In this document: positions 25,238 through 60,330 of the stretch, piece by piece
How positions within the stretch are numbered: position 1 is the first letter of the stretch
Layout: each line of letters starts with the position of its first letter
Made by a program: the position numbers and the translations under genes
NCBI GenBank assembly: GCA_031264185.1
Contig: JAISEL010000087.1
Location: 1 to 64,000 of the forward strand
From: Deltaproteobacteria bacterium
GTDB taxonomy: Bacteria; Desulfobacterota; Desulfarculia; Adiutricales; Adiutricaceae
Direction of reading: 5' to 3'
Length of the DNA: 64,000 bases
The notes under the pieces: model-generated
Database searches by the model: none
Seen by the model: the letters and a program-made list of their open reading frames with translations, nothing else
What the model was told of the DNA's origin: nothing

Positions 25238-25412
25238 ACCCGGCGGATAATTATGATAGATCAAATATTCCTCATTATTTATATATGATCACGGTATAAT
25301 AATTTTTTAACCATACTACAAATAGACTATAAAAACTGCATAATTTTTTGAGTGTGCTAAAGACTGAAGAAACAAAGGATAAACTCTTTTATCATAATTA
25401 CCCGCCGGGGTA
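25238..25412 (-). repeat. Miniature element family 1, copy B
   Basis: Inverted relative to copy A and about the same length, ending ATCATAATTACCCGCCGGGG. Shared interior strings include GATCACGGTATAATAATTTT and AAAGACTGAAGAAACAAAGG in this orientation. Copies A and B flank a 0.6-kb piece of relic (ii). Confidence 0.8.
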
Positions 25413-25413
25413 A

Positions 25414-25606
25414 TACCCCGGCGGGTAATTATGATATTACTCCGGCGGATAATTTTGACCATGATAAAATTAAATACGCGAGAGTCAAGGTGAGACCGAA
25501 GAATAAATAGATTCTCATAATTATCCGCCAGGATAATACAAACAAATCATCATAAGGTAAAATCAATGAAGAAAGATATTATCGTAATTATCCGCCGGGG
25601 TAATAA
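25414..25606. repeat. Miniature element family 1, copies C and D plus an orphan end
   Basis: An orphan end (TACCCCGGCGGGTAATTATG, 25414-25435) is followed by a ~95-bp element C, bounded by CCGGCGGATAATTTTGA and TCTCATAATTATCCGCC. A partial element D (25531-25606) shares TACAAACAAATCA and ATAAGGTAAAATCAAT with the copy at 44.34 kb. The cluster is tandem and probably formed by repeated insertion at the same place. Confidence 0.75.
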
Positions 25607-25718
25607 TAAGCCGTTTTGTCCACGTAAAGGCTCCCGCGACAGATTATTTTTTCGAAGTTCTGAAGACCGATAGGCAGAGTTTTCAATTGGTCTCCCATAA
25701 ATTCCTCCATAAAAACAG

Positions 25719-42430: not shown

Positions 42431-42760
42431 ACTGAACCGGCCATGAGTTTTTTGATCGTCCGGACGCCCGGCTGACCGTCGGATCAAACTGAGGCGCCTT
42501 TATCCATCAATTTAGAAGTTACTAAGTCATTGAAATCGCTTATAAAATTCTTACACCGTCCAAGTTCGGCGCCAGTAAATTTAAATTCTTTAGCTATGAA
42601 GCCTGCCTCCACAGCCGCCATTATAGATCACTAAAATCTTGAAAGGAAATTAGAATAATTTAAGACAAAACACACCGTCCATAACAATTTTTGAATCCGA
42701 ACAATCTTAAACAGACCCAGCTTTCAGTGTCGGCTAATTTGCTGGTTAAAGTCGCCTCCG

Positions 42761-43030
42761 TTAGACGTAAAACCGGAAGGCACCGGTTCCGGCGGATATC
42801 TGGGCATATTGGTGAGAATGAACACAGATGTCAGGGTGGTTATAGAACTTAAATACTCTCACGATCCGGCCAGAAAAGCTGAAACGAGGCTAAAATGGCT
42901 GGCTAAGGAGGCTCTTAAAACGATCAAAGAAAAAGAGTACGATAAACAGTATCGGCAGGTCGGCAAGAAAGCAGTCAATATCGGAGTCGGCGTTTTCATG
43001 AATGGTCAAGTGCAGGCTGTATTTGAATAG
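42761..43030 (+). pseudogene. PD-(D/E)XK 3' fragment of the AAA-ATPase family, relic (v)
   Basis: Encodes LDVKPEGTGSGGYLGILVRM, DVRVVIELKYSHDPARKAE and continues to QVQAVFE with the family stop. The DNA is close to 88% identical by eye to the last 265 bases of the intact gene 3 kb downstream. It is an intact-reading 3' end without the ATPase part, left after recombination or deletion between paralogues. Confidence 0.8.
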
Positions 43031-43876
43031 AATTATAACCCTTTAATTCCTGCATCCTATAAAAGCCGGGATAACAGGTGAATACTTTGGGATTTATTGT
43101 AGTTTCTGTTTGTTTTTCTATCCTTGCGGATAATTACAGAAGTATCCGTTCGCGGCAGTAGAGCCTTCTGTGGGAGAGACTGACAAGAGTATACGGGACA
43201 AGCCTCTTGATACACCCAGAAGCGGGATCAAATATCTATGGGCGTATCCAACCCTCCACCATATAGGTATATCCATAATTTGGTCTTTTGGAAGCTTGCC
43301 TGTCAGCCGTCAAGCTGCAAGTCTTAAGACTTTCTTCCCTAAATCATTGGCCAGGGATCTTCCAAAACCACCTGCAGGCGCCTTCAACCCCTATAAGCCG
43401 AGAAAGCCTGCCCTCAAGGACTCACTCATTCCGGGAGCCGTCAGCCGCCGGCAGAGTGTAAAATGCCCCCGCAGCCGGGTTAAGCCACATTAATGTTTTT
43501 ACATCAAAAAAAGCAACGTATAGTGTCTATATAGTATCTAATAATTTAACTTTAGTCATATGTTATTATATAATTATTAGATGATAGCAATGAATAAATG
43601 CTTAAATATTACTTATATTCATGCCCTTACCGCCCAAAAGTAGGTAAAATATCTTTGGTCATATACATTGCCTGCAGAACAAAGCCCAGCGGTAAGTTTC
43701 TTCCTCAGTCATTTTTTCTCGAAATACTAGCTGCAAGAAGGCCAGAGGTAAGGGAGAAACTACCCAGGACTATAAAAGCAAAGTTAGATTGGACAATTAT
43801 TCACCTAAAAAACGTCCTGAGTTCGAAAAGGAGGGAAATGAGTATTGATTATTAATATTTCCCTCTAACAAAATAT
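43031..43876. other. Gap upstream of the intact AAA-ATPase gene
   Basis: No recognised gene. Two plus-strand frames (43170-43493 and 43598-43855) have no motif; the second ends RREMSIDY and has no clear ribosome-binding site. Probably eroded accessory DNA. Confidence 0.35.
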
Positions 43877-43905
43877 TTGACAAAGACCGCAAAATAAAGT
43901 ATAAT
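43877..43905 (+). promoter_or_regulatory. Perfect-consensus sigma70 promoter, orphan copy
   Basis: TTGACA, 17 bases, TATAAT. No gene follows in the expected place. The surrounding ~90 bases resemble the promoter region 400 bases downstream, in front of the intact AAA-ATPase gene. Confidence 0.65.
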
Positions 43906-44278
43906 AGTTAATGTATTCAGTTTAAGATTTTCAAACGTTAACTAACTAAAAAACAAGAAAGAGAACTATTCAATCCCAGAAAATGCCAGCCATCGGGTGT
44001 TGGGACGGGCGCAAACGATGCGCGGCGCTCCGAAAAATCAAGGTTTATATCCATCCAAGGCCGCTTGGCCTGAACTGGCAGGCATTCTCTGACTGCTGAG
44101 ACATGTCCTTGAGAGCTATTTCGAAAATAGACTCCAGACCACATAAATTTGGTCTGATTGGACCTGTTTTCCTGTAACCTGAGCCCTAAGCACTAAGCCC
44201 AAAAAAGTTGAAAAATGAACGTATAACGTATGAGGTAAATTATCAGTTGTCTATTTTTATTTTCCTCCAATAAAATAT

Positions 44279-44308
44279 TTGACATAGGCTGATGCAATAA
44301 AGTATTTT
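44279..44308 (+). promoter_or_regulatory. Probable promoter of the intact AAA-ATPase gene
   Basis: TTGACA, 18 bases, TATTTT, in a sequence duplicated from the orphan promoter (shared AAAATATTTGACA and GCAATAAAGTAT / GCAAAATAAAGTAT). A miniature element lies between this promoter and the start codon. Confidence 0.55.
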
Positions 44309-44340
44309 ATTTATTTGGAGTAAAATTTTAAACCGTTACT

Positions 44341-44432
44341 ATTACCTCGGCGGATTATTATGATAATCTATTTCTTTATTGATTTTACCTTATGGTGATT
44401 TGTTTGTATCAAAATTATCCGCCGGGGTAATA
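44341..44432 (-). repeat. Miniature element family 1, copy E, in the AAA-ATPase leader
   Basis: About 92 bp with ends ACCTCGGCGGATTATTATGA and AAAATTATCCGCCGGGGT. The interior matches copy D at 25.5 kb in inverse orientation (ATTGATTTTACCTTATGGTG). It interrupts a leader whose uninterrupted form, GTTAACTAACTAAAAAACAA, is kept at 43.94 kb. Confidence 0.8.
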
Positions 44433-44481
44433 ACTAAAAAATAGTAAAGAGAGACTAAAACAATAACTCGGAGTGCTCTCC

Positions 44482-46125
44482 ATGAAGAAAATCCCGTCCA
44501 GAACGCAAACATTTAAGGAACTCATTGAAAAGGGGTATATTTATGTCGACAAGACCGACTTGCTGCCCCCGCTTATTGAAAGAAAAGCCGTATTTCTCTC
44601 CCGCCCGAGAAGATTCGGTAAATCTCTCCTTCTAAGCACTTTTAAATCGCTCCTGGAAGGCGAAGTTGAACTGTTTAAAGGCTTAAAAATAATGGACCAG
44701 GGCTTTGAATTCAAAAAATATCCGGTCATCCGCCTTGATATGTCCATGACTTCCAGAACTCCTGACATCACAACAAAAAGTCTCCTCCAAAAGTTGGCCA
44801 ATGTCGCTGAAAGCTTTGGATTAAAGCTGATACAGGCCGAGCCGGGAGAGACGTTTGTTAAACTGGTCATAGACATCAACAGGCAGTGCGGCCAAAAGGT
44901 GGTCGTTTTGGTTGATGAATATGACTATCCCGTGAATCATAATATTGATGATTCCTCTCTGATGATGGCCAACAGTAAAATTCTAAGTGATTTTTACGTC
45001 TCTTTCAAGAGCATTGATTCATTGCTTGAATTTGTGTTCGTGACCGGGGTGACGCGCTACGCCATGATGGGCTTGTCGGCCGGACTCAACAATCTCTACG
45101 ACATCAGTTTAAATTCCCAATACGCCGCTATTTGCGGATTTACACTGGAAGAACTGGATATCAATTTCCGGGAGCACTATAAATCGCTACTTGAAAAACA
45201 GGATGCTCAAGATTTTCCCCCGCTCATTGATGATGCCATCGATTTGCTGAAGGATACAATTTTGAGTTGGTACGACGGTTATTCGTGGGACGGAATAACC
45301 AATGTCCTCAATCCTTTTTCAATTATCAATTTATTTGACAATGGCGAATTTAAACCATACTGGGAGCTTTCATCACCTTCCGTCAATTTTATTACCAACC
45401 TGGTCAAAGATAAACCCTGGGATTTCACCAAAGACAAAATGTCCGGCTATGAAGAAAGCCAGTTCACTAACTCCCTGCCGGGAGTTCCAGTCAACCCAGT
45501 CCTTTTTATGTTTCAAACCGGTTACCTGACCATTGATAAAATTACAACTGCTAAAATTAAAACTGTCTTTAATGGCAAAAAGATTAATACAAATAAAAAG
45601 TTATATTCATTTAAGACACCTAATACTGAATTGGAAACGACTTTTGTCGTATCATTAAATGAAGTTTTATTTAATAATTTGGTAAAAAATAAGAATGAAG
45701 AATCAATAAAGTTTAAAGCGGCCATTAGTTCCAAAAATCCACATGAGCTGACAAATATTATAGGGTCGATTTTTTCAGCAGTACCTTCCGATCTGCACAC
45801 GGAAAAGGAATCATTTTATCATAGTTTGCTGGCAACTTATCTCCTTGGCTTGGGTTTAGACGCAAAATCGGAAGACTCCGGTTCCGGCGGATATCTGGAC
45901 ATCCTGGTGAGGATTAAACCAGATGTCAGAGTGGTCATAGAACTAAAATACTCTCACGATCCGGCCAGAAAAGCTGAAACGAGACTGAAATGGCTGGCCA
46001 AAGAAGCCCTTAAAACAATCAAAGAAAAAGAATATGATAAACAGTATCGGCAAACCGACAAGAAAGTGGTCAATATCGGGGTCGGCGTTTACATGAAAGG
46101 TCTAGTTAAGGCTATATTTGAATAG
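44482..46125 (+). CDS. AAA-ATPase-like protein with C-terminal PD-(D/E)XK nuclease domain
   Basis: The only intact member of a family present here in six pieces. ATG 44482 (547 residues, MKKIPSRTQTFKELIEK) has GGAG 8 bases upstream; a GTG at 44473 is less likely. The N-terminal ATPase_like domain shows YIYVDKTDLL, the P-loop RPRRFGKSLL (about 41-50), Walker B VVVLVDEYDYPV (about 142-153), FVFVTGVTRYAMMG and YAAICGFTLEEL. The C-terminal domain shows GGYLDILVRI and VVIELKYS, the D...E-x-K nuclease core. Members are often multicopy in anaerobe and symbiont genomes; proposed roles are nuclease or mobile and defence functions, not established. Codons near 45530-45790 are markedly more AT-rich than the rest. 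Confidence 0.85.
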   Translation: MKKIPSRTQTFKELIEKGYIYVDKTDLLPPLIERKAVFLSRPRRFGKSLLLSTFKSLLEGEVELFKGLKIMDQGFEFKKYPVIRLDMSMTSRTPDITTKSLLQKLANVAESFGLKLIQAEPGETFVKLVIDINRQCGQKVVVLVDEYDYPVNHNIDDSSLMMANSKILSDFYVSFKSIDSLLEFVFVTGVTRYAMMGLSAGLNNLYDISLNSQYAAICGFTLEELDINFREHYKSLLEKQDAQDFPPLIDDAIDLLKDTILSWYDGYSWDGITNVLNPFSIINLFDNGEFKPYWELSSPSVNFITNLVKDKPWDFTKDKMSGYEESQFTNSLPGVPVNPVLFMFQTGYLTIDKITTAKIKTVFNGKKINTNKKLYSFKTPNTELETTFVVSLNEVLFNNLVKNKNEESIKFKAAISSKNPHELTNIIGSIFSAVPSDLHTEKESFYHSLLATYLLGLGLDAKSEDSGSGGYLDILVRIKPDVRVVIELKYSHDPARKAETRLKWLAKEALKTIKEKEYDKQYRQTDKKVVNIGVGVYMKGLVKAIFE

Positions 46126-46541
46126 CAATAAAACCGATAATCCTCTAGCCATCTAAAAACCGATTAAAAAAGGACTAATACTCTGGGATTCAAGACAATT
46201 AATTACAAAAATTTATTATTGTTCCACGGTGCAAGAGTACATTTTTATGAAACTTATTCTCGTTCTTGGTTTACAGCACGCAGACTTCAAAAATACTGAT
46301 GAATTAGAGCTTTTTCTACCCAAATAGGTTTTACTTGACGGACTGCCCAGAGCAAAATCTGGCTGTTGGCGACTGTCATGTTTACACTTGGACAGCATCT
46401 CAGGGTGCTGCCTCACAAAAATCATCCATTCAATGGAAAAAACGGGCCCCATGATCACCATGTATGACTTTATGTACCTGCTGAAAAGCAATTGACCATT
46501 AGTAAACCTCTCAAGATTATATTTCAGCTATTGCCATTCAA
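46126..46541. other. Gap between the AAA-ATPase gene and the IS1634 copy
   Basis: No supported gene. A 91-residue minus-strand frame (46216-46491) has no recognisable motif and no ribosome-binding site. Confidence 0.35.
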
Positions 46542-48507
46542 CCTAAAATCCCGGACTTTTTTAACCTACATTCATGCATAAACTGGAATAACACTTAATT
46601 ACAAAGAAGAATTGGAGATTTGCAGGTGGCGATTCTAGGTTAAAAAATTTCAACCTACAAATCGAAAAGATGGCAAATATTTATTTCTGCGGTTCGGTAA
46701 ATGCTCACATTTCTATAAAATAGCTGGATTTTCGAAAATAGCTGGATTTTCGGCAAATTTAGGACTACAAATTTTTATAAAATATAAAAATACCAAAATA
46801 GCTGTTTTAGGTGTTGACAATCAATTCTTAAGTCTGATAACCTAGATTACCTTACTAAAGAGGTAATCATGCCAAATCTCTCTATCCAGCATTTAGGAAA
46901 ATACACGTATATTTTATGAATCTAAGTCATTCAGGGACAATTTTGGCAGCCCCCGGAATAAAAAAAAGATCCGAATTGGTAAACTCGACCTGATTACAAG
47001 TGAACCAATTTACACTAAAGAATATATTAAGAGCCACCATGAACTTAAAGAAATAAATCATACCAATACAGACAGTGGCTACAAAATTAGTGATATCATT
47101 TTTAAGACATTAGAAAATGTTTTAGATTATGGGTTATTCTGGTTTTTTCAAAATTTAGCCGAAAAGACTGGATTATTGAACATCATTCAAGAGTCTTTCC
47201 CTTTTATTTGGCAAGAAATATTTACTTTAGCCTGCTATATGGTTACCTCAGATAAAGCCTTTCATGTACTGTGATGATTGGATTGACGAAAATTATTGGC
47301 TTGATATCGGAGGGATGTCGTCTCAGCGGATTAGTGATCTTCTGTCTGAATTTGGTGATGCGGAAAGGGCCGGGTTCTATAAAAGATGTGCAAGCATATT
47401 ACAGAAAGAGAGAGCCTCGCCTTGGATATCACTTCAATTTATTCATACTCAATAAATATGGAAGAATGCGAATGGGGGCCACAATTGAGACAAAAAAGCT
47501 GCCTCAGATCAACTTATGTATGCTTTTCGGTGAAAAGTCAAGGCTGCCAGTTTATCAAACCAGCTATTGTGGAAGTTTAGGCGATGTTACTACACTTGAA
47601 GCAACTTTGATGGAGTTCAAAGCTATGGCAGGGAAGAAAGAAATCTCATTAGTTATGGACAAAGGTTTTTATAGCAAAAAAATGTTAATACGCTATTAAA
47701 AAATAATGTAAAATTTATTGCAAGTGTTCCTTTTTCTAATTATTTTGCATGTGAAATTGTCATAAACGAAGCTGACACTGTCGACAGCTTATCAAATGTC
47801 ATTCTCACTAGCGATTATCCGGTCAGAGGTGTGGAAAGAGTATTGAGCTGGGATAAGGGTTCTGAAAATCTACATATTTTTGCATTTTTTGACCCTGTTA
47901 AGGCACTAAAGAATAGAAATTCTCTCTGCCTAAAAATTACAACTTTGAAATCAGTCGCAGAGATTGACCCCTATAACAAAGACTATAGAGAATCAATTGA
48001 ACAATATTTTATTGTGAAAAAGTCTAACAAACTTAAATCAGGATATTCCGTAAAGCTGCGCGAAGATGTTCTGGAAACGGAACTGAAACACGCTGGATAG
48101 TTCGTACTTATAAGCGACAATATTAAAAATGCACAGACAGCTTTTGATATTTATAGATTGAAAGATGTTGTCGAAAAAGGCTTTTGGAAGAATAAAAACA
48201 GCCTTGGTCTGGAAAGATTACGGGTGCACAGTGATATCCGCGCTCATAATAAAGAATTTATTGCTTTTATTGAACTTATTTTGTCTTCTTTTGTCCATAA
48301 AACCATGAAGGACAATGATTTGTATCAGACGATGACATTCGATAAACTTTTCTTAACGCTTGCTAAAAATAAATCATCAAAAGTGAATGGTATTCAATAT
48401 AATTGGCTCATTAACAAAACAACAAAAAGAAATTTTTAAAGTGTTCGGTATCCCATTACAATGCAAAATTTTTAAGCTGCAGGTTAAAATTTCTCCTCAA
48501 ATTTAAG
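46542..48507 (+). mobile_element. IS1634-family element, full-size copy (inactive)
   Basis: The left end, CCTAAAATCCCGGACTTTTT, and the right end, GGTTAAAATTTCTCCTCAAA then TTTAAG, form a decayed inverted repeat. The better-preserved right end of the 55.4-kb derivative (TTTCCGGGAATTTAGG) makes the repeat clear. Outside these ends CATTCAA / TTGAATG is also inverted, so the true boundary may be 46535-48514. An 18-bp tandem duplication (AAAATAGCTGGATTTTCG twice) lies at 46717-46752. It encloses one broken transposase gene. Confidence 0.75.
46869..48439 (+). pseudogene. IS1634-family transposase, broken
   Basis: ATG 46869 starts MPNLSIQHLGKYTYIL then a stop. The rest reads through in pieces: FRDNFGSPRNKKKIRIGKLD, FQNLAEKTGLLNIIQ, LDITSIYSYS with the first catalytic Asp, VYQTSYCGSLGDVTTLEATL, SLVMDKGFYSKKML with the second Asp, and VVEKGFWKNKNSLGLERLRV with the Glu. 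The frame ends in WLINKTTKRNF. At least three frame breaks and two in-frame stops are visible, so the protein is not made, though all three DDE blocks remain readable. Confidence 0.85.
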
Positions 48508-48996
48508 ATTGAATGCATTCTAATTACTGCTGGTGGAGATGGTTAAACTAGACATAGACTAAATTTATGGAATTAAGAATTTCAACAGCCCGCTAATGAA
48601 TCAATTGTCCCAGTCAAGGCATGCCATTTTCCGCCTGGAACAAGCAAGCGGAATCATATAGGGCATTAATTATCTTCTTTTTTTCAAATTGGAAATGTCT
48701 GACCCTATGCAATTATGATGATAATACTGTAAATCTTATTAACAATACTTATGCCTCAAAAGGCCAGAAAATCATTGAACGGTCAGATCGAAAAAATATG
48801 AATAACGCACCAAAATCACGAAGGAACAAATTAAATCCATAAGAATAAAACGCAACATATTTCATAGTTAATGGAACTATAACAGCAGAAATAAAAGATC
48901 ATTTATTCCCAGCGCATAACTATCATAACTGACATATGGTGTCGGCTTGAGAGCTTAGGCGCAATAAAATCGGTATGTTATATATGGAGAAATGAT
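48508..48996. other. Gap upstream of the giant helicase gene
   Basis: No recognised gene. A 73-residue frame (48621-48842) has no motif. It should contain the helicase promoter, but no clear -35/-10 pair was found. Confidence 0.35.
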
Positions 48997-51900
48997 ATGA
49001 CTGAATTACCAACCATACCAGAAGAATCAAACTCTGGTGTTTCAATAGAAGCCGTTGCGACTTCACGTACGTCATTCGCTTTAATTCAAAACTCCATCCC
49101 GGTAATAAATTACATCGAAGTCACCAATAACGGCTCGATTCACCTTGAAAATGCTAAAGTCAACATTTCATCCGCCCCCGAATTCTTCAAGGCCCGTGAA
49201 TATATATTACCTCCAATAGAACCTGACGAAACATACCGTCTGGACGAAATTGACCTCAGCTACGACCACTCACACTTATCGCATCTTAATGAAGCGGAAA
49301 AAGGCCTGCTCAGGATCGAAATTCTTGAGGACGATAAACTTTTAGCCGAATCAGAATCCGACATTGAACTTTTAGCTAGAAATCAGTGGGGAGGCTTGGC
49401 GGAATGCCAGGAAAGCGTCACTGCCTTTGTTCTCCCTAATGACCCAGCTGTGGAACGTCTTTTAGGTCATACAATGACCCGGCTTCGGCAAATAGAAGCG
49501 GACGCTGGTTTCGATGGTTACAGCCGCGGCAAAAAGGCAGTATGGACTCAGCTGACGGCGTTATGGCAAGCCATAATTGATCAGGCGCTGGGTTATATTT
49601 TGCCGCCGGCCAGCTTTGAACAACAGGGGCGGAAAGTGCGCACTCCTTCCCAGATCACGGAAACTCACCTGGGAACCTGCTTGGATATCAGTCTTCTATT
49701 TGCAGCCTGCCTTGAGCAATGCGGCCTGCATCCTCTCCTGATATTTACTAATGGGCATGCCTTCACCGGCTGTTGGCTGTCTCCGTCAAATTTCACCACG
49801 ACCGCCGTAGATGATATCACCGCCATACGCAAGCGGCTGCACCTTAGGGAAATTGTCGTTTTCGAAACTTCCCTGGTAACTAAGCAAGAAGCGCCGGTCA
49901 GTTTTTCTCAAGCTTGTGAACGCGGGGAAAATAATGTCCGCGAAGGAATGGAGTCCAAATTTGAATGCGCGATTGATATCGTCCGGGCCAGAATGCAACG
50001 ATGGCGTCCGTTGACTTCGGTTGAAGCCGTCACATCGCCGCTGACTCCGCCAGACACGAACGGATACGACACTCCCCCATTTGCGCTGGAAGTGCCGCCG
50101 GATCTGGAAAATGAAATAGCACCGCCCCATCAGCCAACTGAATTTACACCCAAAACCAAAGTCGATCTCTGGCAGAGGAAGTTGCTTGATCTTTCATTAC
50201 GCAACAGCCTCCTGAACTTCCGTTCCGCCAAGCGTTATGTTGAAATAGTTGCCCCTAACCCTGAGGTATTGGAGGATAAGCTGGCTGCCGGCGAAAAATT
50301 CCGTCTGGTATCCGCCGCTCCACTTCTGGGCAATGATCCTCGGGACGCCAAACTCCACGAAGCCCGTCACCAGGAAGATATATTGCCTAAACTGGCGTTG
50401 GAACTGGCTGGCAAGCAATCGCTTCTGGTTGATCTGGCCGAAAGTGAAATGAAGGCGCGGCTTTTGACTTTATATCGTGAAGCCCGCTCGGCCATTGAAG
50501 AAGGAGGTGCCAACATCCTTTACCTGGTCTTCGGCTTTCTCTCCTGGCGGAGGGACAAGCGGGAGAAACCCTGTCGGGCTCCGCTTATACTGATTCCGGC
50601 CCGCCTGGAACGCCGGAGCATATTGAGCGGCTTCACCTTGTCGCTCGACGGTGATGAGCCCAAGTTCAATCTGACCTTGCTTGAGATGCTGCGCCAGGAT
50701 TTCGCTTTTACGGCCCTGGATAACCTGGCCAAAGAACTCCCGACTGATCAATCCGGCCTGGATATTGACGGCATTTGGCGGCAAGTTCAAGCGGCCATTG
50801 TCAAAGAGCCCGGATGGGAAGTATCCCGCAGCGTTTCCCTCGGCCTGTTCTCATTCGCGAAATATCTGATGTGGAAAGACCTGGCTGACCACACGGACAT
50901 CATAAAACAAAACCCGGTGGTCAATCATCTTTTGGGCTCGCAAGAACAAAACCCTGACGGCGAAGGTCCGCCCTTTCTGGAGCTGAATGAACTTGACACT
51001 AAGCTGGCCCCACAGAACGTCTATTGCCCTCTTCTGGCCGATTCTTCGCAACTGGCGGCTATCATCAGTGCGGCCCAAGGCAAAGATTTTGTCCTCAAGG
51101 GGCCTCCCGGTACAGGCAAAAGCCAGACCATCGCGAATATGATTGCCCAATGTCTGGCGGAAAACAAAACAATTCTTTTTGTTGCGGAAAAAACTGCGGC
51201 TTTGAACGTGGTCTACCGTCGCCTGAAAGCCATCGGCCTGGAAGAATTTTGTCTGGAGCTGCACTCCAATAAAGCCAACAAGCCTCAAGTTTTGGCCAAA
51301 CTTCAAAGAGCGGCGACGTCTGTTCCTGACACATCGGATGAAGATTGGGTCTATCATGCCTCTCGCCTGGCGTCTGCCAGGGATAAATTAAACCAATATG
51401 TACGAGAGTTGCATACAGTCCACCCAAACGGTCTGACGCTATATCAGGCTCTGGGGGAGATAATTAAGAACAGCCAGATACCCCATATAAAGTGTACGTG
51501 GCCTTCGCCGCAGCAGCATGATCGCCAGAAGTATGCCGACTTGTTTGAAGCGGCCCAAAAACTTGAAGACCTCGCTCCACTGATTCAAGAACTACGCTCT
51601 GGAGCTGTAGGCCTCATCGCCTGGGAGACGTGGACGCCTCTTTGGGAAGAAGAGCTGACAGCCGCCGCCGAGGCATTGCGTGATCAATGCCTCTCCCTCT
51701 CAAAAAACGAAATGGAGGCCGGCAACGCCAGCGGCCTGCCCCTGATCGGGACACACGGCGATGCTCTGACGGCCTGGATGAAGCTGACTGAACTCCTGCC
51801 TGAGTCCTTTGGGCATGATTGGAAATTCACCACTTGGCATGGCCTGGACGAAGCCTCGAGCCCTCTAAACGAAGCTGTGGCCGCCATCGAAGACTATAAT

Positions 51901-54900
51901 TCGGCTTGGACGCGACTGACCGGTGTATTGGATGAGGGCCGGGAAAACACCTTTTCGGAAACCCGTCTGTTGAAAAATCTGGCTCGACTGGCGGATTGCT
52001 TTGAAGCCCTGGCGGCAAGTCAACTGCGCCTCACTGAAATACGCTGTCAAAACATCAAACTGGACGCCGGTCAGGCAATTGTTGAACTGATTCGGGAGAC
52101 CCTACTCAACCCCGCCGCCTTAGTCAGCGCCTGGCAGGCCGCTTCGTTTCCCGGGACACTGAAAGGATTTCAAAAATCTCTTGATGAAACAGAACAGATT
52201 TTAGCCGAAACTGAACGACTCTCAAGCGAATACGAACAGGCCAGGCAGGCCTTATCAGCTTCTTACGATGAAGCCAAGTCATTCGAATTGAATCTTGCTG
52301 ACCTGGAAACAACCTGGGAAAAGGGGCAAAAAAGCTGGTGGCTTAAAAAATATTTTTTGAAGCGGCATGTAATTAAAAGCCTGCAGGGTGTTTGCAATGC
52401 CAAAGCCGCGCTTGATTGTTCCGGTGATTTGAAGTGTCTGAAAGCAATGCGGACCGCCAAAAACCGCCTTGAAGAAATCAAGGCTTCAGAGCCAGCCGTG
52501 AGTACGGACCGTCCCGGGCCATGGTCCGGTTTCGCGGCCAAACGCGAAAACCTCAAGCAACGGATGCTTTATGCCCGGCAGATTCAAGCGGCCCTCAGTC
52601 CTCTGCCCGAAATGACTGAAACATTACATGCCGCCGCTGTTGAACTGAAATCAGCAGATGATTTCGGCCGGCGATTGCGCTCGTACCTGAGACTGACAGA
52701 CCAAAACCAATCTCGGCTGGTCTCCCTGCACGACTCCTTGTCCAGCTTACTGTCCAACGGCAGCACTATTTTGACTCCTGGAGGTCGAGCTGTTCAAGCC
52801 CTGACAGCATGGCGTGTGACCGCCCAGGAATACCGCTTACGCCTGAAGGCGTTAACAGACCTGCTCCATACAGAAAAAGACTGGTCCACAATGGCGTTGA
52901 CCGAAATTTCGGATATTTGCTCTGCACTCGTTGACTCCAGGTCACGCTTTAATCCCTGGTGCGCGTGGTTACGGGCTTCCCGTTCGGCCGACAGCTTGGG
53001 ATTGAAAAATCTGCGGGAGGCCCTGCTCGAAGGCCTCATAGCTCCGGGCCAGACCGCCGCAGCCCTGCGCGTAAACTACGCTCGCTGGTGGGCGCCAAGA
53101 ATGGTGGACGCTTCGGAAACCCTTTGCGCTTTTACCTCGCGAGTCCACGAACGAACCATCAGCGATTTTAGAGCGCTTGATGACCGCCTATGTACAATGG
53201 CCGGACACCAAATCGTCCGCACTTTGCGCTCAGGCCAGGCCATGTACCGCAAAGAGCCAACCGAATGGCGAATCCTGGAGAGGGAATCTAAGAAGAAGAA
53301 GCGGCATATGCCCATCAGGCAACTGGTAAACAGCTTGCCGACCCTGCTACCTAAATTGACGCCCTGCCTCCTGATGAGCCCTCTTTCGATCGCCCAGTAT
53401 CTGGAGGCCGGACGGACGGTTTTTGATTTGGTCATCTTTGATGAAGCCTCGCAGATCCCGGTATGGGACGCTATCGGGGCTATGGCCAGGGGCAAAAGAG
53501 TGGTGGTGGTGGGTGACCAAAAGCAGCTGCCGCCCACCGCTTTTTTCCAAAAAGCCGATGACGAAGATCAGGACGACGACGCCATGCTGGAAATGGATCT
53601 CGAAAGTATTCTGGATGAGTGCCTGGGGATCGGCTTGCCGTGCCTTTCTTTGCAGTGGCATTATCGCAGTCGGCACGAAAGTTTGATTGCTTTCTCCAAT
53701 CATCGTTACTATGACGGGCGCCTGGTTACCTTTCCTTCACCAGACACCGAGGACCGGGCCGTAACGTTTCATTTTGCCGGAGGGGTTTACGGGCGAAGCG
53801 GCTCCCGTACCAACCCTATCGAAGCCAGAGACTTAGTTGCCGATTTGACGGCCAGATTAAGTTCATCGGAATTCCGAAAAGCCGACCACCCGACCATTGG
53901 CGTGGTTACGTTCAATAGTCAGCAACAAACACTCATTGAAGATTTGCTGGATGAAGAACGCCGCGAAGATCCGTCGCTGGATCGTTTTTTTGACGAAAGC
54001 CTCGCCGAACCGGTCATGGTCAAAAATCTTGAAAATATCCAGGGCGACGAACGCGACATTATGTATTTTTCTGTTGGCTTTGCCCCAGATGCGGCGGGCC
54101 ATATGTCCCTTAATTTTGGGGCCTTGAATAAAGATGGTGGCCAACGGCGGCTCAACGTGGCCATCACCAGAGCCAGGGCAGCCCTGAAGGTCTTCTGTTC
54201 TTTTTATCCCGAAAAAATTCTGCTCAGCAAAACCCATGCCAAAGGAGTCCGTGACCTGCGCCTCTTCCTTGAATATGCTCAAAACGGCAGTCGAGCCATG
54301 AATTTCGCCCATAAGGGCTCGGTCGGGGATTTTGAATCGCCTTTTGAAGAGGCTGTGGCCAAAGCCTTGGCTGATAAAGGTTGGGAAATTCACCCGCAGA
54401 TAGGTGTCTCTGAATTCCGTATTGATTTGGGCGTGGTGGATCCAGATGAACACGGCCGCTACCTTGCTGGGGTGGAATGCGACGGCGCAACCTATCACCG
54501 TCATGCTACAGCCAGGGATCGCGACCGGCTTCGCGAAAATGTACTGCGTGGGCTGGGCTGGGAGATTATCCGCATATGGTCGACAGACTGGTGGATAGAC
54601 GCAGCCGCTGCCACTGAAAAACTGCATTCCAAACTGCAAGCAGTTTTGGAGCAAATGCGTGAGCGACACAGACGAAAAGACGTTCGCTCTGACGATGACG
54701 AGCCGACCCTGCCTGATACGGCGGCAGTTATGGCCGCCGTGAAGAATCCGCCGGACAGCCAACCGGTGACCGAAGTTACGCAGCCCGAAAACGGAAGCAC
54801 TCTGGAACGGGAACGAATTCGTTTTTTCGTTCGCACCTTGGTGGCGGAACATTCCCCCATCCACGTCAATGCTTTGTGCCGGGCAGTGGCCAGGCAACTG

Positions 54901-55239
54901 GGTTTAGGTCGGGCTGGAAGCAAAATAAGGAACGTGATTTTGCAAGTTGCCGAAGAAATGTTTGAGCAATCCACCGAAGAAGTCGGCGATTTCTTCTGGA
55001 ACGAAGGGGAGTCTCCTGGTACTTGCAACACTTTTAAACCACGAAGCAAAGACGGCCCCTGCCAGGTGGTTGAAATTGCCATGCCGGAACTGGTCGCTCT
55101 GGCTCGTTTGGTTAAAAATACCAGTAAGGGCGACCCCATAGCCCAAATGGCTCGCAAGCTAAGACTTTCAAGGCTTCATGCCAGCACCAGAGCGAGACTG
55201 GAAAAAGCCTGGACCACTTGCTGGGGCACGTTGTTTTGA
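48997..55239 (+). CDS. Giant DUF4011-type superfamily 1 helicase with Vsr-like nuclease domain
   Basis: 2080 residues, no frame break. GGAG 7 bases before ATG 48997 supports the start. Layout: a beta-rich N-terminus (about 15-125); a transglutaminase-like domain with Cys228 (HLGTCLDISLLFAACLEQ) and His254 (NGHAFTGCWL); a DUF4011 region from 388 (KVDLWQRKLLDLSLRNSLLN). SF1 helicase motifs: Walker A GPPGTGKSQT at 702, DEASQIP at 1482, GDQKQLPPTAF at 1506, WHYRSRHESLIAFSN near 1556, NIQGDERDIMYFSVGF near 1680 and LNVAITRARAALKVF near 1718. A 1575-type/Vsr-like endonuclease domain spans about 1778-1868 (FRIDLGVVDP, GVECDGATYH, RDRLRENVLRGLGW). A DUF3320-like C-terminus runs from about 1950 (ERIRFFVRTLVAEHSPIHVN). 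Helicases of this build occur in defence-rich islands; a role in nucleic-acid defence is inference. Confidence 0.9.
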   Translation: MTELPTIPEESNSGVSIEAVATSRTSFALIQNSIPVINYIEVTNNGSIHLENAKVNISSAPEFFKAREYILPPIEPDETYRLDEIDLSYDHSHLSHLNEAEKGLLRIEILEDDKLLAESESDIELLARNQWGGLAECQESVTAFVLPNDPAVERLLGHTMTRLRQIEADAGFDGYSRGKKAVWTQLTALWQAIIDQALGYILPPASFEQQGRKVRTPSQITETHLGTCLDISLLFAACLEQCGLHPLLIFTNGHAFTGCWLSPSNFTTTAVDDITAIRKRLHLREIVVFETSLVTKQEAPVSFSQACERGENNVREGMESKFECAIDIVRARMQRWRPLTSVEAVTSPLTPPDTNGYDTPPFALEVPPDLENEIAPPHQPTEFTPKTKVDLWQRKLLDLSLRNSLLNFRSAKRYVEIVAPNPEVLEDKLAAGEKFRLVSAAPLLGNDPRDAKLHEARHQEDILPKLALELAGKQSLLVDLAESEMKARLLTLYREARSAIEEGGANILYLVFGFLSWRRDKREKPCRAPLILIPARLERRSILSGFTLSLDGDEPKFNLTLLEMLRQDFAFTALDNLAKELPTDQSGLDIDGIWRQVQAAIVKEPGWEVSRSVSLGLFSFAKYLMWKDLADHTDIIKQNPVVNHLLGSQEQNPDGEGPPFLELNELDTKLAPQNVYCPLLADSSQLAAIISAAQGKDFVLKGPPGTGKSQTIANMIAQCLAENKTILFVAEKTAALNVVYRRLKAIGLEEFCLELHSNKANKPQVLAKLQRAATSVPDTSDEDWVYHASRLASARDKLNQYVRELHTVHPNGLTLYQALGEIIKNSQIPHIKCTWPSPQQHDRQKYADLFEAAQKLEDLAPLIQELRSGAVGLIAWETWTPLWEEELTAAAEALRDQCLSLSKNEMEAGNASGLPLIGTHGDALTAWMKLTELLPESFGHDWKFTTWHGLDEASSPLNEAVAAIEDYNSAWTRLTGVLDEGRENTFSETRLLKNLARLADCFEALAASQLRLTEIRCQNIKLDAGQAIVELIRETLLNPAALVSAWQAASFPGTLKGFQKSLDETEQILAETERLSSEYEQARQALSASYDEAKSFELNLADLETTWEKGQKSWWLKKYFLKRHVIKSLQGVCNAKAALDCSGDLKCLKAMRTAKNRLEEIKASEPAVSTDRPGPWSGFAAKRENLKQRMLYARQIQAALSPLPEMTETLHAAAVELKSADDFGRRLRSYLRLTDQNQSRLVSLHDSLSSLLSNGSTILTPGGRAVQALTAWRVTAQEYRLRLKALTDLLHTEKDWSTMALTEISDICSALVDSRSRFNPWCAWLRASRSADSLGLKNLREALLEGLIAPGQTAAALRVNYARWWAPRMVDASETLCAFTSRVHERTISDFRALDDRLCTMAGHQIVRTLRSGQAMYRKEPTEWRILERESKKKKRHMPIRQLVNSLPTLLPKLTPCLLMSPLSIAQYLEAGRTVFDLVIFDEASQIPVWDAIGAMARGKRVVVVGDQKQLPPTAFFQKADDEDQDDDAMLEMDLESILDECLGIGLPCLSLQWHYRSRHESLIAFSNHRYYDGRLVTFPSPDTEDRAVTFHFAGGVYGRSGSRTNPIEARDLVADLTARLSSSEFRKADHPTIGVVTFNSQQQTLIEDLLDEERREDPSLDRFFDESLAEPVMVKNLENIQGDERDIMYFSVGFAPDAAGHMSLNFGALNKDGGQRRLNVAITRARAALKVFCSFYPEKILLSKTHAKGVRDLRLFLEYAQNGSRAMNFAHKGSVGDFESPFEEAVAKALADKGWEIHPQIGVSEFRIDLGVVDPDEHGRYLAGVECDGATYHRHATARDRDRLRENVLRGLGWEIIRIWSTDWWIDAAAATEKLHSKLQAVLEQMRERHRRKDVRSDDDEPTLPDTAAVMAAVKNPPDSQPVTEVTQPENGSTLERERIRFFVRTLVAEHSPIHVNALCRAVARQLGLGRAGSKIRNVILQVAEEMFEQSTEEVGDFFWNEGESPGTCNTFKPRSKDGPCQVVEIAMPELVALARLVKNTSKGDPIAQMARKLRLSRLHASTRARLEKAWTTCWGTLF

Positions 55240-55372
55240 GGCAGGCGACATCAGAAACTGGCCAAAGCTTGATGTTCTAGGCCGCTCTTCTTCACTTTAA
55301 AATATAAATTATCATGAGTGCGAGTGACAGCATGACCATCTGTCATTTTTTGACTTCAGTCGGCGTTTACCT
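55240..55372. other. Short spacer after the helicase gene
   Basis: No gene or clear terminator seen between the helicase stop and the deletion-derivative element. Confidence 0.35.
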
Positions 55373-55696
55373 CCTAAAATCATGGACTTTTTTAACCTAC
55401 TTTTATGCATAAGCTGGAATAAAACATAAATACAAAAGAGAATTGATGGCCAACAAATGACGTTTTGCAGGTTAAAAAATTTTAACCTGCAAACCTAAAA
55501 CATGGCATTAATTTCTTCGGTTAGGCAAATACACATGTTTCTATGAAAATAGCCGGAGGAAGGTTCGGGATTATTGGATTCAATATATTTTGGCCATTAA
55601 CAAAACAGCAAAAAAAATTTTGATTCAAAGTGTTTTGTAAACCACTGCCGCACAAAATTTTTAAGCTGTGGGTTAAAAATTTTCCGGGAATTTAGG
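55373..55696 (+). mobile_element. Internal-deletion derivative of the IS1634-family element (324 bp)
   Basis: The left part (CCTAAAATCATGGACTTTTT, ATGCATAAGCTGGAATAA, AGGTTAAAAAATTTTAACCT-like core) matches the first ~180 bp of the full copy at 46.54 kb. The right part (CCATTAACAAAACAGCAAAA, ACAAAATTTTTAAGCTG, GGTTAAAAATTTTCCGGGAA) matches its last ~90 bp. The transposase gene is missing. The ends form a good inverted repeat of about 26 bp with a few mismatches. Same orientation as the full copy. Confidence 0.8.
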
Positions 55697-55742
55697 ATTC
55701 AAAGTAAGGCAATAATACATTTGATGATACTAAACTCAGGTT

Positions 55743-55763
55743 ATTACTCCGGCGGATAATTTT
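55743..55763. repeat. Miniature element family 1, solitary end (copy F)
   Basis: ATTACTCCGGCGGATAATTT is identical to the left end of copy C at 25.44 kb and then stops exactly where the IS1-like element begins, so that element may have inserted into or beside a miniature element. Confidence 0.6.
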
Positions 55764-56965
55764 GGTAATGGGTAAGTTTAGTTGACAAAAAATTTTCTCA
55801 GAGTTATAATGCTCCCTAGATTTGATATCCGTCCGGGAGTTTACCTATGGTTTGATGCGAACAGGCCTCTTGCCCGAACAAGGATTGTGTGGATTTTGGG
55901 AAAATTGGCGGAGATAACATCGCTTATCGTGGTAAGTATGGAAAGAATAATGGTAAAAATCTGCTTTATTGCCGTACCTGCGGAAAGCGTTTTGCCGCAA
56001 CCCGGAACTCTCCATTGTTTGGGGCTCACCTTTCGCCGGATCAGGTCTTTCAGATTGTTCGCCATGCCGCCGAAGGCGTAAGTGTCAGAGCCTCAGCCCG
56101 TCTCCTCGGTATCAGCAAAGCCGCTGTAAACCTAGTCATCCTCAAAGCAGGCGACCACTGCCAAAAGGTCTTTCGTGCCTTAATGTCTTCGTTTCAGCTC
56201 ACGGAAGTCCAGCTTGATGAGTTGCGGACGTTCGTGAAAAAAACGGCTGCTGACGAAAAAGAACTCGAACAGGGGTTCGGAGAAGCCTGGATCTGGACAG
56301 CCATAGACACTCCAACCCGGCTGATCGTCAATTTCAAGGTTGGAAGACATTACTTGGTGGATGTGGATGCCCGTGAGATGATTCAGAAAGTCCACAGGTC
56401 CCTGGCCGGAGACAAACCTCTTTTCGTAAGCGATGAACTTCAACACTGCGCTTCTGTACTTGAGGAAGAGTTTTCTCACGAGGAACCAATCCCGAGGACA
56501 GGCAAACGTGGCCGCCCAGCCAGACCTAAAACGGTGATTGATGATGACCTGATTTACGACACAGTTAAGAAGACAAGAAATAAGGGCCATATCGTCAAGG
56601 TTGAGCGCAGTGTCGTTTTCGGGACTGAGACTGGTTTTCAGGAGAGGCTTGTGGATCCTCCAAGCAATACCATCAATACAGCCTACGTTGAGCGCAGTAA
56701 TCCCGCCTGGCGCCTCTGGGATGTCCATTTGACTCGTAAGCCGGTGACATTCGCAAAAGCTCGTAAGTGGTTGGAGGCCTAATTATCGATCTGTATATAC
56801 TGGTGCAATTTTGTCAGAGTCCATAGTTCCCTGAAGGTAGTTACTTGGGAAACCGTTCAGAATAGGACGCCAGCCAGCAATGGCCGCTGGAATTACCGAT
56901 CGACCTTGGACAAAAGCGGAGCTTTTAAGAACGTTTTGGCTTGTCAATTAAACTTACCCATTACC
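55764..56965 (+). mobile_element. IS1-like insertion sequence, 1.2 kb
   Basis: Left end GGTAATGGGTAAGTTTAG (55764-55788) and right end TAAACTTACCCATTACC (56941-56965) are 25-bp inverted repeats with one mismatch. They bracket a single transposase gene. No target duplication is apparent. The good terminal repeats suggest a fairly recent insertion even though the gene is frameshifted. Confidence 0.85.
55809..56941 (+). pseudogene. IS1-like transposase, three frameshifts
   Basis: The start at 55809 reads LPRFDIRPGVYLWF, then must shift to reach EQASCPNKDCVDFG and LLYCRTCGKRFAATRNSP, a four-cysteine InsA-type zinc ribbon. A 297-residue uninterrupted stretch (55889-56779) carries the HTH (AEGVSVRASARLLGIS) and catalytic blocks WIWTAIDTPTRLIV, LFVSDELQHCAS and NTAYVERSNPAWRL. 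It stops at RKWLEA, while another frame continues CNFVRVHSSLKV and a third, AMAAGITDRPWTKAELLRT, the family's usual C-terminus. The zinc finger is thus disconnected and the C-terminus lost. Confidence 0.85.
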
Positions 56966-58956
56966 GTCTTTTTCATAAGCGTATTTTTTGCCGACTCTTG
57001 ACCTACTTGACCTACTTCCGGCTCTCTGCCTTTGATGTCAATATTTTTCAGCTTTTTTGCGTCAATACTCCCCCGATATATCTGGCAACTTCCTGGCGGG
57101 TGGAGATGGGTGGCAATTCACTGTACCGTCTTGATATCAATACGTCCCTATGATTCATCTTATCATCCTTTTTCATATTTATTTTTATATTAATTAAAAA
57201 ATTTATTTTTAGAAAAACAAAGACTATCTAAAAAATCTCAGACATTCATTGGAATCAAGCCAAGATTAATTTTCAGATATTTAAATATCAATTTTTTAAT
57301 AGATAAAGATAATCAAAAAGTTGAAAAGTAATATCTAAGGATTTAATATAAAATAAAAAATTATTTTTATAATAAAATGAAATACCATAAATTAAAATAT
57401 CGAGAAAAACTAAATTATTATCTATAATACTATATTTTATTTTTATATGTTCCCGTTTATCAAAAAAAAAAGATCTTTGTCAATTATTCGAATATGTCCA
57501 AGAAATTTATATGGAGTCCAAACCTTAAAAAATTAAATCAGTTTTATAAATACTTATTTAATAATCTAATTCTTTAATATTATTATATTTTTTATTTAAT
57601 AAATTTTTTATCGACACTAAATTATTATATTTATCAATATCAATTAATTTATCATCGCTAATATTTTCAATTATTTTAAAAAAATCATATAAAGAATTTT
57701 ATACAAAATTAGAAACATATATTACATTATACTTTGTTAACTTATTTATTGCATTAGTAATATTAAATATGTAAATATTATTTTTCTTATTATTAAAGAT
57801 TAACTGTAACCATTTTTGTAATATTAGAAGTCTGTACGAATTTAGTAAAAACCTAAATGCACTATAATTAGAGTTTAACGACACAATATCAGAAATAATA
57901 TAGATATTTTTCATCAAATTTATAAAATTAAGTGCATATTGAGGAAACATATACAAATATAATTTTGTAAAAGCTCGGCTATCTTCATTTATAATTATTT
58001 TTTTAAAATTAAATTTTATAAACCTAAATAAGACTGTATATGTAATAATAGATTTATTAGTTATCATAATAAATCTTCAATGATAACTATTTGTACATAT
58101 TAAAAAACAAAAAAACATAAATAATATCAAATAGATGCTATATATATTTATATAATTAATAATAGAAGGTAAAATATTATTATTTACTAATAACATATAA
58201 CTAACAATAACAGTCCAAGGAAATATATAAATGAAAAGATCAGAAATTGTCATATAACCACAAAAAATTTGAGCAAAAACTGTGCATATATACTCGTTGC
58301 TATTTACTTTATAGGTAGAATTTGATTTTTTTGTATTAAATATGTTAAATTTCTTGATAATAATTGTTTGTAAAGAAAATATCTTTTGATATCAGTATGT
58401 TTTAAATTATTCCACAATTTCAATAATTAGTCATTATTTAATTGATCAAAATTTAATTTATTTAAATTATTTATATTTTTAAACATATAACTATTCTTAG
58501 ATAATTTAATTAACGTTTTATTTATATATTAATATATTTAAATATAATTAACACTCTAAAAAACAACTTTTATAGTTTATTTAATCTTAAAATTCATAAA
58601 TATCTTTTCTAATTGGGTTGGAATAGACCAAAAATCCTCTGTCAAGCGAGGTTGATGGCTCCGAAAAAAATCCCAACACAGAAATGAGCAGTTCTGGTGT
58701 GCCAAAAATTAATCTTTGACTTTTTTAAATTATTTCTTCTGTTCAACGTAAAATAGACTGTTTTTTCTTGATAAAAGGATATTCAAATCTTATAATAGAA
58801 CCTGAAATTAATATTTACCAACTAATTCTGATTGATTCAATAATAATTACTTCCAATAGCATAAATAATTCAGCTATATTCACTCCTTGGGACTTGTTAT
58901 AGGGAGAGAATCTAAGCATTCTTAATTCCTCATGGGCGCCTTTTTTCAGGGATAAC
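56966..58956. other. Extremely AT-rich tract
   Basis: From about 57165 to 58610 composition is strikingly AT-rich (long runs such as TTTATAATAAAATGAAATACCA), unlike the rest of the window. The only long frame, 122 residues on the minus strand at 57699-58067, consists almost wholly of Ile, Asn, Lys, Phe, Leu and Tyr with no motif. No gene is claimed. It could be a foreign insert, fully decayed coding DNA or a structural locus. Confidence 0.55.
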
Positions 58957-59602
58957 GTGCTGCCAATACTCCAAATTGAGAAATTGACCCCTCTTTACTG
59001 TAAGACCAATGGCCGTCCGACCAAAGATTTAGACACTTTGTGCGGATTAGCCGTCCTACAACAACATTTTGACTTGTCCGGCATCGAAGTCTGCAGGGCT
59101 CTTAGTTTTGACTTAATGTTTCAAACGGCCCTGAAAACATCACATGACAGGACCAGCTGTATCTCACCCCTCACCCTGTCTGTGGGATTTCCGGCACAAG
59201 CTGACAGATCTTAACCTGGACTCAGATATTTTTGCCTCTGCCACTTACGAGATACTCAAATGCACCGACATCTCTTTGGAAAAACAACGGCTGGATTCGG
59301 TTCATATATTTTCCAATGAGTTGGTATGTAAATTGTAGTGCAACTAACGGCAGCATTGAAGCAGAGTTTGATGCTGCCATATGTAATAAATGTCCTTTTT
59401 GCTCCGGGTGTCCGGTTGTCACCAGCGGAGAACAAGCCAGACTCAACTGCACACCCAAGAAACTAAGGCTTTCAGAACGTAAAGCTTTAAAGAAAACAGA
59501 GGGTTTCAAAAATATATATTTAATGCGTTCAGGCATTGAGGGCCGCCAACAGTTATTTGGATCGAACGACCAGGATAAAACACTAGCGATATCGTGGCTT
59601 TA
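58957..59602 (+). pseudogene. IS1182-family transposase relic
   Basis: N-terminal block LPILQIEKLTPLYCKTNGRP, TKDLDTLCGLAVLQQHFDLS and VCRALSFDLMFQTAL. After a frame change, CLWDFRHKLTDLNLDSDIF and LDSVHIFSNEL. After an internal deletion, the C-terminal cysteine-rich ICNKCPFCSGCPV and KKTEGFKNIYLMRSGIEGRQ. The middle of the DDE domain is gone. Order and motifs are those of IS1182/IS5-like transposases. Confidence 0.75.
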
Positions 59603-59603
59603 G

Positions 59604-60330
59604 AGCCTTGCATTTTTCAATAATTTTTAAAGCATTAGGAGCTAATATAGTTAGAATCACGTGCTATCGCTTAGATCGCAATAATATACCATAATTATAT
59701 ATAAATTGCGCTCTATTCTCGTTAAAAAAATTGATCTGACAGAATCGACAGACCGTTTTCAAAATTTTTACAGGCCTGAACCCGATTTTTTGGGCTGTAG
59801 CCAGTCTCCACCTTCTTTTTCCGGGGAGGCCCTTCATTTTTTAAAGGGGAGTTTTTCGAGGCCATCCTCTTTAAGAAGGTCTATAAGGAACTGCAAGACG
59901 TTCATATAACTTATTACTACAAAAAAAATTATCCTGTGTCAATAAAAATAAATAGATGCTATATTTATAGTCCCGTTAAGCAAAATATTCCTGATCGATA
60001 TGTTGTATGTAAATTAATACAAGTATACAATAAAATACTATTCATTGATTAATTTTTGATATTAATATATATGATAAATATAGATAGATTTAATAAGTAA
60101 TTTTTTTGCAAACGCCAGTTCTGAAGATTATTGAGGTTGTATTGAGAAGATTTAAGAAAAATTTTAAGCGCATCGATCTTAGCTATAAATGGACCCCCTG
60201 CAGTGGCTCATCGGCCAAAATTAGAATTGCTGATCAAAAAGAGGGGATTTAACCTGACTTAACTTGAAACCTCAGGCTCGTTTTTGGTCTTCCCCAGTCC
60301 CAGTCTCACGGATACTGGGGAAGCATAAGT
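59604..60330. other. Gap before the SPFH gene
   Basis: No supported gene. A 67-residue plus-strand frame (59706-59909) has no motif. AT-rich at 59.9-60.1 kb. An inverted repeat (60289-60323) lies next to the end of the minus-strand operon. Confidence 0.4.
60289..60323. repeat. Ten-pair perfect inverted repeat at the end of the SPFH operon
   Basis: CTTCCCCAGT and ACTGGGGAAG with a 15-base loop, 8 bases beyond the stop of the SPFH gene. There is no T-run on either strand, so it is not a classical intrinsic terminator; it may stabilise the 3' end of the transcript. Confidence 0.5.

Follow-up and report, generated by a model that had tools for sequence, protein, structure and literature searches.

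A probable IS1634/MITE hybrid composite transposon around a putative anti-phage helicase-nuclease gene in a deltaproteobacterial genome

We propose that a 9.2-kb block (positions 46542-55696) of the window, the 64,000-nucleotide stretch of deltaproteobacterial DNA analysed here, is a hybrid IS/MITE composite transposon, a reading that its sequence makes probable rather than proven. According to this model, a long IS1634-family element would contribute its left terminal repeat as the left end of the unit, and a MITE from the same group its right terminal repeat as the right end (Table 1). An IS1634-type transposase, acting in trans or supplied by the long copy before its decay, would have cut at these two outermost ends, and the whole block with its ProA-type gene would have inserted at ATTCAA, thereby duplicating the target. 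What is directly established is the presence of both elements with their ends, the 6-bp repeat outside them, the unequal decay of the ends and the family to which the cargo gene belongs; that the block transposed jointly, and where its transposase came from, we infer from these. If the block did move as one unit, a dead end and a miniature end would have been enough to move a 6.2-kb gene, and the MITE-bounded composites would come to include the IS1634 family and an anti-phage system of one gene. We give about even chances to the broader claim that such a hybrid moved a whole one-gene anti-phage system with a transposase acting in trans, and that this MITE family is a vehicle for defence genes in the lineage.

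Table 1. Coordinates of the proposed composite unit, its flanks and the surrounding island (window positions)
Feature	Position	Strand	Description and basis
Long IS1634-family element, decayed	46542-48507	+	1,966 bp; alignments, end comparison, NCBIfam model
IS1634 transposase remains	46909-48440	+	Three frames with stops
ProA-type anti-phage helicase-nuclease (putative), intact	48997-55239	+	2,080 aa; Pfam, NCBIfam, PADLOC
MITE of the same IS1634-type group	55373-55696	+	324 bp; genome search, end comparison
Outer flank on the left, ATTCAA (putative target duplication of the entire block)	46536-46541		Exact match to 55697-55702
Outer flank on the right, ATTCAA (putative target duplication of the entire block)	55697-55702		Exact match to 46536-46541
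Flank at the inner (right) end of the long copy, ATTGAA	48508-48513		5/6 to ATTCAA
Flank at the inner (left) end of the mini, TTACCT	55367-55372		2/6 to ATTCAA
Accessory island (17.8 kb) between the DUF1848 and Band_7 genes	42488-60330		Neighbour genes adjacent in three congeners

The first-pass annotation of this DNA had described two related elements in the same orientation, the shorter one 324 bp long, with essentially only a helicase-nuclease gene between them, and all of this was borne out. The long and short copies align over 187-189 bp on the left (77% identity, E 4e-37) and over 120-125 bp on the right (76% identity, E 7e-22). They enclose 489 bp, the single cargo gene and a further 133 bp. 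Since their identity is only 77%, the two elements must be old, which counts against the composite.

The transposase of the long copy is broken, as its alignment to an intact relative runs through three frames and several stops, and the unit is therefore now inert in cis. Against the NCBIfam IS1634 transposase model (NF033559), the remaining fragment scores 41.9 bits, which is below the whole-protein cut-off of 100 bits, as expected for a fragment, and intact relatives from related genomes reach 154 and 195 bits. The window fragment matches the family model below threshold and its intact relatives above it, and the related elements found here share CCT-type inverted ends and mostly 6-7-bp duplications, the window copy differing from the family in being a pseudogene. 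Fragments of long-type elements are also present on two other contigs of the same genome (C113 and C41). Among 59 related genomes, DNA-level matches to the long element were limited to short conserved stretches of the transposase. A search for relatives of the long element on plasmids gave none. An intact 551-aa IS1634-type frame is encoded elsewhere in the same genome (contig C108) and could be a candidate trans-acting transposase for the ends of the unit.

On the other hand, the short copy did not prove to be the long copy's own deletion derivative, as had been claimed at first pass: we rejected a direct derivation from the window long copy because the mini is 77% identical to it, compared with 84-91% to solitary minis. 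The genome (4.4 Mb, 166 contigs) contains four more complete short copies, located on C107 (two copies), C133 and C85, and a partial one. The window mini is 89% identical to the solitary copy at C107:65530, 84% to those at C107:115707 and C133:20658, and 88-91% to both halves of the copy at C85:6826. The complete short copies all have an identical internal junction, which points to a single ancestral deletion that was later amplified, and by these comparisons the window mini belongs to a MITE family that is older. Three of the four complete solitary minis, whose ends read CCTAAA...TTTAGG, are flanked by target duplications of their own (AATAAA, GTACTAA and CTTCAT). At C133:20658-21522 (L187), about 450 bp separate a solitary MITE, for which no target duplication is recognisable, from an oppositely oriented truncated MITE.

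The composite reading is carried mainly by the flanks. A look for target duplications at the outer ends of the block had been suggested at first pass, and the two outermost flanks indeed form an exact 6-bp direct repeat (ATTCAA/ATTCAA, 6/6). Around the mini alone there is no duplication (TTACCT/ATTCAA, 2/6), and the two inner flanks, ATTGAA and TTACCT, match at 1/6 positions. The flanks of the long copy (ATTCAA/ATTGAA) match at 5/6 positions, a possible duplication of its own. The composite geometry suggested at first pass is hence upheld by the exact outer repeat and by the mini lacking its own duplication, and is weakened by the near duplication around the long copy. As a reference, we collected 17 family members from this and related genomes, of which 13 have exact 5-7-bp duplications, two a 5/6 match and two none. 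When left and right flanks of different members were paired, the 272 pairs included 2 exact matches and 21 matches at 5/6 positions; the chance of an exact match between A/T-ended 6-mers of the island is about 0.2-0.3%.

The ends themselves have decayed unevenly. Compared with the consensus of the solitary MITEs, the two outer ends (left of the long copy, right of the mini) have 0/20 mismatches each, while the inner ends have 6/20 (right of the long copy) and 2/20 (left of the mini). The eight ends of the complete solitary copies show 0-2 mismatches, a range that includes the value of 2/20 and excludes that of 6/20.

The main competing explanation is that the two elements inserted independently into a decaying accessory island, that the outer match is coincidental and that the gene came by another route. 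The long IS would then have duplicated ATTCAA, with one copy later mutated to ATTGAA, and the MITE would have lost its left duplication. We consider this scenario unlikely, yet it deserves serious attention, since the long copy's own 5/6 match is just what an independent insertion followed by one mutation would leave and counts against the composite, and since both a 5/6 duplication and the lack of any duplication do occur in the family (2/17 each). Furthermore, the island holds several other mobile-element remnants, and solitary copies of the elements, which had been named beforehand as evidence that would speak against the composite, were found in part: solitary minis with their own duplications lie elsewhere in the genome and thus move alone. 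However, two independent insertions would need an exact 6-bp coincidence (2/272 unrelated pairs) together with two decayed duplications, and they leave unexplained the decay of the inner right end alongside two intact outer ends. Counted roughly, joint insertion calls for a single coincidence of 8%, and two separate insertions for one of 0.7% as well as for the two decayed duplications. The likelihood ratio would then be about two orders of magnitude in favour of joint insertion, with no discount yet made for the low prior, the small samples and the post-hoc choice of the comparison.

In another scenario, a circular molecule with the gene and a single copy of the element would have recombined homologously with a resident element already flanked by the ATTCAA duplication. 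This would also yield an identical outer repeat and has been proposed for MITESen1-bounded structures (PMC13367494), but here it is very improbable, given that the copies are only 77% identical, that their divergence profiles bear no crossover signature and that the inner flanks ATTGAA/TTACCT, on this view the opposite flanks of a single insertion, match at 1/6 positions.

Returning to the composite transposon, the uninterrupted target site predicted from the outer flanks would read TATTGCC-ATTCAA-AGTAAGGCAATA, and these flanks, once joined, give a perfect inverted repeat of 7 bp on either side of the target (TATTGCC-ATTCAAAGTAA-GGCAATA). An inverted repeat of this kind was seen in 1 of 156 cross-joins and in 2.2% of random contiguous sites, which is a weak and post hoc hint that the outer flanks may once have been contiguous. 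A preference of the element family as a whole for hairpin-loop targets was not significant (P 0.11).

The cargo is a protein of known and widespread architecture, putatively anti-phage on the basis of its family model. It scores 2067.8 bits over residues 26-2058 against the NCBIfam model 'anti-phage protein ProA' (NF058533, cut-off 1500), and its best PADLOC model is PDC-S37. With 868.1 bits against Hhe (NF042953), it stays under the cut-off of 2000. Pfam recognises DUF4011, an SF1 helicase, an MTES_1575 nuclease and DUF3320. The N-terminus, encoded at window positions 48997-50160, seems to combine a beta-sandwich with a region resembling a transglutaminase, in which the near-invariant Cys228, His254 and Asp272/273 are kept in 75-76 of the 78 aligned sequences. 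The Pfam match of this region to a transglutaminase-like family is weak (E 0.12), and the model of the N-terminus (pLDDT 90.5), when searched with Foldseek, matched mostly beta-sandwich structures at low TM-scores, and these do not settle the catalytic domain.

An architecture of transglutaminase, SF1 helicase, Vsr nuclease and wHTH has already been described (PMC3710099), and that of the cargo is therefore not new. Compared with these giant ProA-type proteins (NF058533; PMC3710099), the cargo has an identical domain order and differs in that the HEPN domain is not matched and that the closest relative aligned is about 51% identical. Relatives are common on chromosomes and plasmids, and a search of viral contigs gave five distant ones, 39-40% identical. 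In the collection of papers searched, there was nothing relevant on ProA as the name of an anti-phage protein or on DUF4011 together with DUF3320. The G+C content of the gene (0.53) and its GC3 (0.55) are similar to those of host genes, so that composition gives no sign of recent import, a point against the composite. Likewise, the gene is single-copy and the unit occurs once in its own genome, with no second location found, and no IS1634 element was detected near other ProA-like loci among the 90 loci searched.

In three congeners (L177, L178 and L180), the Band_7 gene adjoins the DUF1848 gene, roughly 90-155 bp away. The same two genes are 17.8 kb apart in the window, which places the helicase gene and both elements within an accessory island, about half of which is the block itself. 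The comparison with related genomes suggested at first pass hence gave a partial answer: the three congeners do show the site without the gene, but there the whole island is absent, not just the block, and none of them offers a clean empty site of the 9.2-kb unit. The left flank (46126-46541) had no match among 39 related genomes, and no tRNA was found at the island edge.

As far as known systems are concerned, the closest precedent for the window unit is the TIME-COMPs, composite transposon-like structures bounded by MITEs with Tn3-type ends, some of them bounded by an integron mobilization unit, whose outer direct repeats are taken as direct evidence of transposition (PMC13367494). MITE-bounded composites have been documented for Tn3-type ends and antibiotic resistance genes (PMC13367494). 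The window unit resembles them in having non-autonomous ends around a cargo gene, outer direct repeats and the need for a transposase in trans. It differs in that its ends belong to the IS1634 family, with a full IS that has decayed on one side and a MITE on the other, in that its cargo is a putative anti-phage gene and in that it is known from one location and from sequence alone. With classical IS-bounded composite transposons it shares two same-family elements in direct orientation around a gene and an exact outer repeat; unlike in these, neither end encodes a working transposase and one of them is a 324-bp MITE. The type of event is a known one; the pair of ends is unusual.

Other features of the island were also recorded. 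An AAA-ATPase-like/PDDEXK_9 gene lies at 44473-46125, and its 3' end recurs 1.5 kb upstream as an isolated stump (42761-43040; 86% identity over 280 bp). Directly beside the mini, an IS1-like element with ends GGTAATGGGTAAGTTTA occupies 55765-56966 and has apparently inserted into a copy of an abundant palindromic repeat; its transposase gene (55889-56782) encodes 297 aa and scores 51.9 bits against the NCBIfam IS1 model, under the cut-off. The stretch 57000-58600 is very A+T-rich, with about 17-22% G+C compared with about 50-55% in the genes of the genome, and holds no convincing gene. The palindromic, MITE-like repeat CCGGCGGATAATTWTG is present in the window at 25240-25609, 44336-44435 and 55739-55764. 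Allowing 1 mismatch, it was found 143 times in forward and 141 times in reverse orientation across the 4.4-Mb genome, against 0 and 0 for the control. Several contigs end within this repeat, and the IS1634 remnant on C113 is interrupted by one of its copies (L188:6930-7125).
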